From Advenella alkanexedens (lineage in GTDB: Bacteria > Pseudomonadota > Gammaproteobacteria > Burkholderiales > Burkholderiaceae_B): a DNA stretch of 64,000 bases. A program made the position numbers and the translations under genes. Position 1 is the stretch's first letter, and every line of letters begins with the position of its first letter. Below the pieces are notes generated by a model. That model had not been told where the DNA came from and ran no database searches. It worked only from the letters and a program-made list of their open reading frames with translations. Of this stretch, positions 40,854 through 49,855 are shown piece after piece. The DNA is taken from contig NZ_JAHSPR010000004.1 of the NCBI RefSeq assembly GCF_019132845.1, forward strand, positions 186,001-250,000. Direction: 5' to 3'.

Positions 40854-40940
40854 TGGTTCCCACGCTCCCGCGTACTCGTTCCCACGCTCCCGCGTGGGAA
40901 TGCAAACCGGAGCGGTTCCCACGCGGGAGCGTGGGAACCA
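40854..40940. repeat. REP-like palindromic cluster
   Basis: TGGTTCCCACGCTCCCGCGT at 40854-40873 and its exact reverse complement at 40921-40940 flank a further smaller palindrome TTCCCACGCTCCCGCGTGGG (around 40879-40900). GTTCCCACGCTCC belongs to a palindromic family also seen after mutS at 48780 to 49130. Confidence 0.75.
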
Positions 40941-46124: not shown

Positions 46125-48779
46125 ATGAGCACAAAGTCCCTTTCTTCCAAAGCCGAAGCGATCCCTAACCGTTTTGCCGGCCACACGCCCATGATGCAGC
46201 AATACCTTGCCCTTAAAGAAGAAGCAGGCTCAATATTGCTGTTCTATCGCATGGGCGATTTTTATGAAATGTTTTATGACGATGCCATTAAAACGGCACG
46301 CCTGCTGAATCTGACCCTCACCAAGCGCGGCACCTCCAATGGCGAGCCGATTCCCATGGCTGGTGTACCCATGCATGCCATGGAGCAATACCTGGCACGC
46401 CTGGTGGCCATGGGCGAATCAGTCGCCATTTGTGAACAGGTGGGTGACCCGGCTGCCAGCAAAGGCCCGGTTGAGCGCAAGATTGTACGTATTGTCACCC
46501 CCGGCACCCTGACCGATGAAACCCTGTTGCCATCCAAGTCCGACCGTCCTTTAATGGCCATTTACCTGCCCCATAAAGGTCGCCAGCCCAAATATGGCCT
46601 GGCTTGGCTGAACCTGGCCAGTGGCGAGTTCCGCCTGACCGAATGCGATGCGGCCTCGCTGGACTCCGAGATCCACCGCATTGCTCCGGCTGAAATCGTG
46701 CATGCCGACTCTTTCCAGCCGGAAACCAGCTGGCAAGGCACCTTAAGCACCACCGCAGACTGGCACTTTGACCAGAACGAAGCCAATGCCTTGCTGTGTC
46801 AGCATTTTGGTGTTGATTCCCTGGCCAGTTTTGGTATTCACGACATGCCTTCGGCAGTGACCGCAGCCGGCGCCCTGCTGCGTTACACGGAAAGAACACA
46901 AACCCAGTCGCTGTCCCATGTGCAAGGCATTAGCGTTGACCAGGCCAGCGATTACCTGGTGTTGGATCCGGTAACCCGCAAAAATCTGGAAATTACCGAA
47001 ACCATTAGTGGCGAAGAAAGCCCCACCCTGTTCTCTTTGCTGGACGCCTGCGAAACCCCCATGGGCAGTCGTCTGCTGCGCCGCTGGCTGCACCACCCGC
47101 TACGCGCCAATGAGCCGATTGCCGACAGACAGGCCTGCGTTCATGCCTTCCTGACGGGCAAATCAGACAGCCCCTTGCACCCGGCTATTGTGCTGGAAAA
47201 AATCAACCAGCTGTTCAAATCCTTCCCCGACCTGGAGCGCATTGCCACCCGTATCGCCCTGCAGTCGGTGCGCCCTCGCGAACTGGCCAGCCTGCGCGAT
47301 GCCCTGGCCCGCCTGCCCGATTTGTATCAGTTGCTTAACGAACACATTGCCTCTACCCCCCGCATGGAAACGCTGTTTGCGTCCCTGACCATAGACCCTG
47401 CCCTGCAGCACCGCCTGCACCAGGCCATTGATGAGGAACCTGCTGCGCTTATCCGTGAAGGTGGCGTGATTGCCCCGGGTTTTGATGCCGAACTGGATGA
47501 ACTGCGTACCCTGGCCAGTGATAATGGCGCCTTCCTGCTGGAGCTGGAAGCCCGGGAACGCACCCGCACCGATATTGCCAACCTGCGGGTTGAATACAAC
47601 CGGGTACATGGTTTCTTTATTGAGGTATCCAAAGGGCAAATTGACAAAGTCCCCGATGATTACCGCCGGCGCCAAACCCTTAAAAATGTTGAACGCTACA
47701 TCACACCCGAACTGAAAGCCTGGGAAGACAAGATCCTGTCGGCCAAGGACCGCTCATTAAGCCGGGAAAAATGGCTTTATGAGCAGTTGGTGGAAGAGCT
47801 GACCCAGTCCGTCCCAGCATTACAGCAATGCGCCCAAGCCGTTTCTGAAATTGACGTGTATTTATCGCTGGCGCAACATGCCCGCAACAATGAGTGGGTG
47901 GCCCCTGAATTGTGCGAGGCCCCCATTATTGAGATTGAGGCGGGCCGCCATCCGGTGGTTGAACGCAGCATAGAACGCTTCACCCCCAACAGCTGCCAAA
48001 TGAACCCCAACCGACGCATGTTGCTGATTACCGGCCCCAATATGGGGGGTAAATCCACGTACATGCGGCAAATTGCCCTGATTGTTTTGCTGGCTCGCAT
48101 GGGCAGTTTCGTACCGGCCCAGTCTGCCCGCATTGGCATGATAGACCGTATTTTCACCCGCATTGGCGCTGCCGATGACCTGGCCGGCGGCCGCTCCACC
48201 TTCATGATGGAAATGACCGAAGCCGCTGCGATCCTGGCCGCCAGCACGCCACACAGTCTGGTACTGATGGATGAAATCGGGCGCGGCACCTCGACCTATG
48301 ACGGCCTGTCATTGGCCTGGTCAATTGCCTGCCGCCTGTTAACCCACAACCAAGCACTGACACTGTTTGCGACCCATTATTTTGAAATTACGCGCCTGCC
48401 CGAGCAAAACGAGGCTGCCGTTAACGTTCATCTGGCCGCGGCCGAATCACCCGGTGGCATTGTGTTTTTACATGAGGTCCAGGAAGGCCCCGCCAGTCGC
48501 AGCTACGGGATCCAGGTTGCCCAGCGGGCCGGCATTCCCGCTGCGGTTATCCGCCAGGCCAAGCGTGAACTGGAACGCCTTGAAAACCAGGCCAGCAACA
48601 CGGCACAACTGGATTTATTTGCCGAAACCGCCCCGGCCAATGACCAGGCCAGCGATGACCAGCTTGAGCTACAGACCCTGCGGGAAGCCATTAACGATCT
48701 TGACCCTGACAGCATGAGCCCACGGGAGGCTTTGGATGCCCTGTATAAACTGCGTAATCTTTTTGGGCAGAAGGAGTAG
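46125..48779 (+). CDS. mutS: DNA mismatch repair protein MutS
   Basis: Recognises mismatches and starts repair. The 884-residue protein contains the mismatch-binding motif [11 protein letters not shown] near residue 46, the clamp/lever region, the Walker [10 protein letters not shown] at 637-645, Walker [15 protein letters not shown] and the C-terminal tetramerisation tail [20 protein letters not shown]. Ends FGQKE at 48779. The last 119 bases are repeated at 48812 and partly at 48965. Overall length is normal for the beta-proteobacterial enzyme. Confidence 0.96.
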
Positions 48780-48811
48780 GCATTCCCACGCAGGAGCGTG
48801 GGAACGAGTCA
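48780..48811 (+). repeat. 32-bp palindromic (REP-like) unit 1
   Basis: Begins directly after the mutS stop codon. Contains the arms TTCCCACGC and GCGTGGGAA around AGGA. Exactly the same 32 bases appear at 48931-48962 and 49046-49077; a related inverted variant lies at 49107-49130. Confidence 0.85.
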
Positions 48812-48930
48812 AGCTTGAACTGCAGGCCCTGCGCGACACCATTAACGACCTTGACCCAGACAGCATGAGCCCGCGAGAGGCGCTGGATGCCTTGTATAAA
48901 CTGCGTAATCTTTTTGGGCAGAAAGAGTAG
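48812..48930 (+). repeat. Second copy of the mutS 3' end (119 bp)
   Basis: Matches 48661-48779 with 14 differences; translated in its own frame it reads [38 protein letters not shown] and stop, differing from the real MutS end at only three residues. It is shifted +1 relative to the mutS frame and has no start codon of its own in a useful position. Confidence 0.9.
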
Positions 48931-48962
48931 GCATTCCCACGCAGGAGCGTGGGAACGAGTCA
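48931..48962 (+). repeat. 32-bp palindromic (REP-like) unit 2
   Basis: Identical to unit 1 and placed directly after the stop codon of the second mutS-tail copy, so tail plus unit form a 151-bp tandem duplication (48661-48811 and 48812-48962). Confidence 0.85.
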
Positions 48963-48964
48963 AG

Positions 48965-49045
48965 CTTGACCCTGACAGCATGAGCCCGCGGGAGGCTTTG
49001 GATGCCCTGTATAAACTGCGTAATCTTTTTGGGCAGAAGGAGTAG
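48965..49045 (+). repeat. Third, shorter copy of the mutS 3' end (81 bp)
   Basis: Matches 48699-48779 with one difference, so it is closer to the functional gene end than copy 2 is. Confidence 0.9.
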
Positions 49046-49077
49046 GCATTCCCACGCAGGAGCGTGGGAACGAGTCA
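49046..49077 (+). repeat. 32-bp palindromic (REP-like) unit 3
   Basis: Identical to units 1 and 2; follows the third mutS-tail copy. A partly matching element in the other orientation, GCTCCCATGCTCCTGCGTGG and on, lies at 49107-49130. Confidence 0.85.
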
Positions 49078-49250
49078 GCATGTGAACGAGGCCAGGTTTC
49101 GTTCTGGCTCCCATGCTCCTGCGTGGGAGCAAATCATCCACTAATACGCATCTTCTGAACAAAAAACCCGTTTTGCTGCCACCAGCATTCAAAACAAGTG
49201 AGTTATTTTCAACGATATATAAAAATCCATCACTTGCCGCTCAACATGAA

Positions 49251-49375: not shown

Positions 49376-49855
49376 ATGCAACCGGCTACCCTTCATGAGC
49401 CCCGGCACACGCACGGCCAACTATTAAACCAAATACTGGAAGAACACCAACACAAAGAGGGAAACCTCTTGCCCATCTTGCATGCCGTTCAAGACCATAT
49501 CGGCTATATCCCTGAAAACTTGATCGCCCCCATCGCTCAGGCGATCAATCGTTCCAGTGCCGAAATCTTTGGCGTGATCAGTTTTTACAAACACTTCAGA
49601 ACGCAAGCCTGTGGCGATATTCATATTGAGTTTTGCCAGGCCGAAGCCTGTCAGGCGCGGGGTTCAAAAGAAGTTGAGCAAGCAGTAAAAGAAATGCTTC
49701 ACACCGAATGGCCGAATGCCACCCTGGAACCGGTTTATTGTCTTGGCTTATGCGCCCAAGGCCCTGCCGTCGCCGTCAATCAACAACCGCTAGCTCGCAT
49801 TACCCTTGAAAAAATCAAGGCAAAAATTCAAGGAGTGGCCACATGCAAAGGGTAA
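49376..49855 (+). CDS. fdsG: NAD-dependent formate dehydrogenase gamma subunit
   Basis: Small NuoE-like electron-transfer subunit, 159 residues. The [2Fe-2S] ligands are the two Cys pairs EFCQAEACQ and YCLGLCAQG in a thioredoxin-like fold. FdsG carries electrons from the alpha subunit towards the flavin of FdsB. Start ATG 49376 has AAGGATGAGAC. Its 3' end overlaps fdsB by 13 bases, so translation is coupled. Confidence 0.93.
   Translation: MQPATLHEPRHTHGQLLNQILEEHQHKEGNLLPILHAVQDHIGYIPENLIAPIAQAINRSSAEIFGVISFYKHFRTQACGDIHIEFCQAEACQARGSKEVEQAVKEMLHTEWPNATLEPVYCLGLCAQGPAVAVNQQPLARITLEKIKAKIQGVATCKG

Follow-up and report, generated by a model that had tools for sequence, protein, structure and literature searches.

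Tandem copies of the mutS 3' end bounded by REP-like hairpins in Advenella alkanexedens, a possible scar of imprecise DNA exchange

The window, the whole stretch of 64,000 nucleotides from Advenella alkanexedens that was analyzed here, carries an intact mutS gene followed by an array of three units, each composed of a mutS tail and a 32-bp REP-like segment that is identical in all three. The next gene encodes a thioredoxin-like [2Fe-2S] protein and is, we assume, the first of a formate dehydrogenase-like cluster. Positions below are those of the window; G000 denotes the genome studied, and G001, G005 and G009 are relatives.

46125-48779, + strand: mutS, intact, 884 aa (open reading frame; Pfam MutS domains I-V)
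48500-48779, + strand: mutS 3' tract near relative G001 (sequence comparison)
48661-48779, + strand: copy 1, the functional mutS 3' end, 119 bp
48780-48811, + strand: REP-like segment 1, stem at 48783-48804 (hairpin fold, pattern match)
48805-48818, + strand: joint 1, REP foot CGAGTCAAG followed by CTTGA of a mutS tail
48812-48930, + strand: copy 2, a displaced tail of 119 bp, read as that of a different mutS allele
48931-48962, + strand: REP-like segment 2, stem at 48934-48955, identical to segment 1
48965-49045, + strand: copy 3, an 81-bp tail without the first 38 bp
49046-49077, + strand: REP-like segment 3, stem at 49049-49070, identical to segment 1
49078-49177, strand not assigned: 3' flank of the array, 0 of 100 differences from G005 (comparison with relatives)
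49108-49129, - strand: inverted REP variant, 3 mismatches (pattern match)
49376-49855, + strand: gene of the thioredoxin-like [2Fe-2S] protein, next after the array (open reading frame, Pfam)

A preliminary description of this DNA had reported a 119-bp tail with an identical 32-bp segment, a duplicate unit and a shortened third one, as well as 14 differences and three amino acid changes between copies 1 and 2 and a near-identity of copy 3 to the gene; all of this was borne out by the sequence, copy 3 differing from copy 1 at 1 of 81 positions. The 14 differences between copies 1 and 2 (of 119 sites) fall 4, 0 and 10 on the first, second and third codon positions and exchange T/A, E/D and A/T, so that the encoded tail reads LELQ(T/A)LR(E/D)(A/T) and continues with 29 residues identical in both. 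The share of third positions (10/14) exceeds the expected one third (p = 0.004), and pooling the pair with that of a second locus, L160 (see below), gives 17 of 23 coding differences at third positions (p = 8e-5). By our reading of the alignment, few changes lie on copy 2's own branch, about 4 with 3 of them at third positions, and a relaxed decay of copy 2 is therefore compatible with the codon positions taken alone.

Measured against G001, copy 1 shows 3 differences, copy 3 shows 1 and copy 2 shows 11, and copy 2 thus looks like the tail of another mutS allele; a source closer than G001 (91%) was not found in the four genomes searched. The mutS gene of G001 matches copy 2 at the first 3 of the 14 sites and copy 1 at the remaining 11. 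These three sites are the sole hint of a recombinant between mutS and copy 2, an arrangement that the preliminary description had proposed to look for, and no clear case was seen among G001, G005 and G009. Because G009 carries G001's base at two of the three sites, we read them as an old state rather than a switch.

The hairpin of each segment is 22 bp long, with a 9-bp stem and a 4-nt loop (TTCCCACGC-AGGA-GCGTGGGAA), and is identical in the three units. When the 36 nt composed of GTAG and the 32-bp segment were folded as RNA, a free energy of -18.4 kcal/mol (z -5.4) was obtained. The 22-base pattern has six matches within the window at up to 3 mismatches versus none in 100 shuffles, and 90 matches at up to 2 mismatches in G000 (2.99 Mb, 20 contigs) versus 0 for the reversed control; this is the short, abundant hairpin expected of a REP. 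Among 61 genomes sampled from the family, 2 contain an exact 29-base version, both of them in the GTDB genus Advenella. The definition of REPs in the available text of PMC3686654 includes a 5' GT(A/G)G tetranucleotide. A GTAG precedes each of the three mutS hairpins, and the one ahead of hairpin 1 (48776-48779) overlaps mutS and supplies its stop codon (GAG TAG), a feature missed in the preliminary description. The tetranucleotide is not general, as many of the other hairpins listed have GTAT or another sequence in its place.

A RAYT encoded in the genome was considered and rejected: the one Y1_Tnp match in G000 has no REP in the surrounding 3.5 kb, no Y1_Tnp match was found in G001 or G005, and a cognate RAYT flanked by the same REP was found in none of these three genomes. 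REPs without their RAYT are reported quite often, according to the available text of PMC3686654. A known RNA family was likewise rejected (no match at the gathering score), as were plasmid relatives (none found). Several other observations concern these hairpins. Two REPs lie in inverted orientation 15 bp apart at 40879-40937 of the window. At three G001 loci (L134/L135, which is the mutS REP, L201/L202 and L213/L214), insertion-sequence ends lie inside REP hairpins, and the transposase part of L135 matches Pfam rve domains; two G005 REPs (L208, L205) hold short end-to-end remnants of a similar insertion element, one of these sites being shared with G001. Also found near REPs is a further hairpin-like family (CCACCCC...GAGGGG), which is present in G001 (L232, L253), there in tandem, and in G000 (L147, L148). 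The flanks of L170 are 9.4 kb apart in G005 (G005:C38:13927-23294) and about 0.4 kb apart in G001, which suggests that something was inserted or rearranged at that REP site in G005.

The mutS gene itself is a patchwork of alleles, since its divergence from G001 swings between 0 and 16 differences per 100-nt step over the 2542 nt compared. A single difference was counted in the 400 nt from 1776 to 2175 of the gene, and 5 in its last 280 nt, versus 155 in the preceding 2262 nt. Each of G001, G005 and G009 has one mutS tail and no second one. In G001, an insertion sequence that lies at the end of a contig interrupts the hairpin of the mutS-tail REP; the continuing contig gives the REP foot as CGAGTCAAGGGCC, from which the native foot of G001 would be CGAGTCAAG. 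After this foot G001 reads GGCC where joint 1 has CTTGA. In G005 the single tail ends with a TAA stop and is followed by one REP variant; in G009 it is followed by no REP and a different next gene. Directly behind mutS, G009, G003, G004 and G007 carry another gene (cupin-like by eye) instead of the formate dehydrogenase-like cluster (L084, L087, L089, L090). G001 is shorter and different at 49078-49177, where the window is identical to G005; over the next 100 bp the window shows 10 differences from G005, and thereafter it follows G001. Farther on, 400 bp of coding DNA (49378-49777) show 0 differences from G005 and 1 from G001, while the DNA on both sides departs from G005 by up to 10-20%; this near-identity would reflect either a recent shared transfer or very strong conservation.

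The array pattern recurs at other REPs of G000, which the preliminary description had also missed. We scanned 40 G000 stretches, placed around REP matches, for direct repeats with the REPs masked; 40 of 81 REP candidates were scored, and weak REP variants may be missing. Near REPs (40.7 kb), 15 pairs of repeats were found, 13 of which straddle a REP; the other two (L147 and L171) have no REP between them by the pattern used, an imperfect one being visible by eye at L171. Eight of the 40 stretches (L143, L144, L148, L151, L160, L164, L165, which is mutS, and L170) contain such a straddling duplication, and the duplicated flank is several times a gene 3' end. At L164, by our reading, it lies in an apparent noncoding 5' region, and at L144 in a terminator-like hairpin. 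Farther from the REPs in the same stretches (105 kb) only 1 pair was found. Twenty control stretches with no recognized REP (300 kb) gave 19 pairs, confined to 4 stretches and with spacings mostly divisible by three, which we take for coding repeats.

The same scan detected straddling pairs in 0 of 40 stretches of G001 and 0 of 20 of G005; the 4 near and 2 far pairs of G001 and the 1 near pair of G005 do not straddle a recognized REP. A closer reading of G001, prompted by a test for matches at the hairpin edges, revealed two loci with a flank duplicated across REPs: at L251 a 25-bp sequence is repeated exactly, with a REP after each copy, and at L254 a REP is flanked by two copies of a 27-bp sequence that have 4 differences, and the second of them starts 6 nt past the hairpin. 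The scan passed over both and is therefore not fully sensitive. The edge test gave nothing at 22 REPs of G005. At least two species of the genus thus have REP-straddling duplications, which are commoner in G000 and rarer in G001. A Fisher test on the scan counts (8/40 versus 0/60) gives p = 0.0004, and p = 0.013 with the two G001 loci added, in a comparison where G000 and its relatives were read with unequal closeness and the mutS locus itself had prompted the test.

Of the 13 straddling pairs, one at L143 is nested and one, mutS copy 1/copy 3, is redundant; without these two, 11 distinct pairs are left. With the copy start defined by the first unbroken run of six matches, 10 of the 11 start 5-14 nt past the same side of the stem (the CGAG/CCAG side): nine at 5, 6, 7, 7, 7, 8, 9, 10 and 11 nt, and L160, compared with G005, at 14 nt, or at 5 by a run of four. 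The exception is one of two pairs at L164 (pair Y), an AT-rich match at 40 nt. A looser matching rule places the starts of the same ten pairs 2-7 nt past the stem. Copy 3 of mutS shares this arrangement, its left joint having the same foot as joint 1 and then the second CTTGA. REPs on both strands use the same foot, L143 and L144 being 7 kb apart in opposite orientation. The edge test covered 5 nt beyond the edges, and its joints are a biased sample; it gave matches on the 5' side at L143, L147, L151, L157, L164, L165 and L176, of which L143, L151 and L165 belong to the repeated unit. The asymmetry of the joint is strong, not absolute. A one-sided start on both REP strands suggests that something reads the asymmetry of the REP, or its boundary as an element. 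We propose, tentatively and as one possibility among others, that a strand-asymmetric activity works at one REP edge, where the DNA would be nicked or a 3' end exposed shortly beyond the stem (a few nt), and repeatedly joins this edge to gene ends in the vicinity, another allele's among them; REPs would then record discarded alleles.

At three loci the two copies differ markedly in their relatedness to G001. Those at mutS, L160 and L164 differ by 9-12%, one being 0-3 sites from G001 and the other 7-11. The clearest two-allele case is L160, where G005 has a gene tail without a REP and G001 has REPs followed by one tail. In G000, the left flank and the displaced tail of 110 bp have the layout of G005; REPs come next, and then the gene, whose own tail is identical to G001 over 110 bp. 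This closeness reaches some 190 bp into the gene; the initial 200 bp hold 1 difference, and the 250 bp that follow hold 22. The displaced tail has 9 differences from G005 and 10 from G001, and so represents a third allele, not that of G005. At L164 (pair X), one copy matches G001 at every site and G005 at all but 1; the other differs from them at 7 and 8 sites, respectively. The remaining pairs show no second allele; they are either near-identical (L143a 0/30, L144 1/35, L170 1/59) or more diverged (L148 3/48, L143b 5/59, L151 4/34, L164 Y 18/52), and some could be single-lineage duplications.

Taken together, we consider it somewhat probable that related lineages exchanged DNA imprecisely at a REP-type hairpin located on the mutS stop, and that the mutS array is the scar of this exchange. 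The steps would be, in the order that we infer, as follows. A REP was present at the mutS stop, as is seen here and in G001. A donor piece ending with tail and REP, taking the G001-like allele as the immigrant, would have undergone homologous recombination within mutS at one end; at the opposite end, immediately beyond the hairpin, it would have been joined with little homology to the resident mutS, 119 bp short of the end of that gene. The gene would thereby retain a complete tail (copy 1), with the resident one (copy 2) displaced behind the REP. The shorter copy 3 could then have arisen by additional duplication and by the loss of 36 bp between two CTTGA repeats of a full-length copy that had this same left joint. 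A crossover in the gene together with a low-homology joint at the REP edge would yield L160 and, with an added duplication, mutS; the pattern of homology-facilitated illegitimate recombination would accordingly fit L160, and mutS less cleanly. Homologues with ComEC and DprA domains are present, which counts toward such an exchange, whereas a copy 3 that resembles G001 yet stands behind the dissimilar copy 2 calls for one more step. Transfer between the lineages of G000 and G001 may have gone either way. Two earlier suggestions survive in part: the capture of a neighboring allele's tail mediated by the REP, insofar as copy 2 is allele-like (11 versus 3 differences from G001) and joined at the REP edge, and repeated slippage with gene conversion, insofar as repeated duplication with exchange also fits copy 3.

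Some of the same features are expected from a plain tandem duplication by template switching, in which the nascent strand folds at the REP, its 3' end slips to an upstream match, and the copies later diverge or are partly converted. Copy starts shortly past the hairpin with little microhomology, tandem REP-plus-flank units and the several near-identical pairs (L170, L143a, L144) all agree with it, but with a symmetric hairpin the side of the joint should vary with the direction of replication, while L143 and L144 share the foot, and the G001-matching copy in the diverged pairs at mutS, L160 and L164 is left unexplained. We regard it as a doubtful account of the whole; it explains the near-identical pairs, and both mechanisms may operate. 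The single REP that separates two flank copies at L164 raised the question of a long target-site duplication by REP insertion; this was set aside, since in G001 the mutS REP has no second tail and since at L151 and L144 each copy is followed by a REP.

An assembly artefact merging two co-existing strains at REPs might account for a pattern that is commonest in one of three assemblies and for the two-haplotype content of three loci. It is nevertheless improbable: gene-internal sequence stands directly behind the REP foot with almost no overlap, which by our reasoning is unexpected for repeat misjoining, the estimated contamination is 0.16%, the genome is no larger than that of G001, and two such loci occur in the separate G001 assembly. 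Least probable of all, and hardly to be entertained, is the earlier suggestion of a reservoir of alternative MutS C-termini switched by recombination. Copy 2 does retain an open frame, a stop and the conserved motif, and the G001 gene agrees with it at three of 14 sites, but the products differ by only three residues outside the motif, in contrast to the different products of silent cassettes that recombine with an expressed gene. In addition, residues A and D of copy 2 are common to G005 and G009, copy 3 is a fragment, G001, G005 and G009 each have a single tail, and the same structure is found at unrelated loci, including the apparently noncoding L164 and the terminator-like L144. As the full copies encode almost one and the same C-terminus, a switching reservoir is not supported, and the array most likely has no function for MutS; by reasoning, if recombination collapsed the array, mutS would remain intact and keep its own stop and REP.

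If the exchange reading is correct, short hairpin repeats at gene ends mark sites of imprecise joining of incoming DNA, and displaced tails constitute a readable record of replaced alleles. Such arrays should thus be taken with caution and not for functional C-terminal switches, and the one-sided joint offers a testable handle on how REPs rearrange their neighborhood when a RAYT is absent. Mosaic mutS genes and horizontal exchange of mismatch-repair genes are known, and these are patchworks of alleles, as in the mutS body here; to our knowledge, the published cases do not describe tail arrays.

For Vibrio arrays of displaced 3' ends and immunity genes, a process akin to homology-facilitated illegitimate recombination is proposed in the available text of Kirchberger et al. 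2017 (PMC5361080). As far as that text goes, both systems share a homology anchor on one side, an illegitimate joint on the other and a resident 3' end pushed downstream, with repeated rounds producing arrays; in Vibrio, however, polymorphic effector and immunity genes are concerned, whereas here a housekeeping gene is affected, in its 40 final codons, and the joint falls at a REP edge. In Pseudomonas fluorescens SBW25, 16 ordered tandem REPIN clusters that include flanking sequence are described in the available text of Bertels and Rainey 2011 (PMC3116915). Units of flank and REP, repeated head to tail at several places in the genome, are found in both cases. According to the same text, SBW25 has nearly identical REP doublets in a genome with RAYTs, whereas in the present case the hairpins are single, the ends of coding genes are involved, the copies diverge by up to 12% and no RAYT was found; the units here are not nearly identical (14/119 between copies 1 and 2). 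Among the literature matches listed, as far as their available text goes, no paper dealt with REP-bounded gene-tail copies from different alleles. In summary, there are precedents both for tandem clusters of REP plus flank and for the displacement of gene 3' ends; what appears to be new here is the combination of two-allele copies with a one-sided joint.
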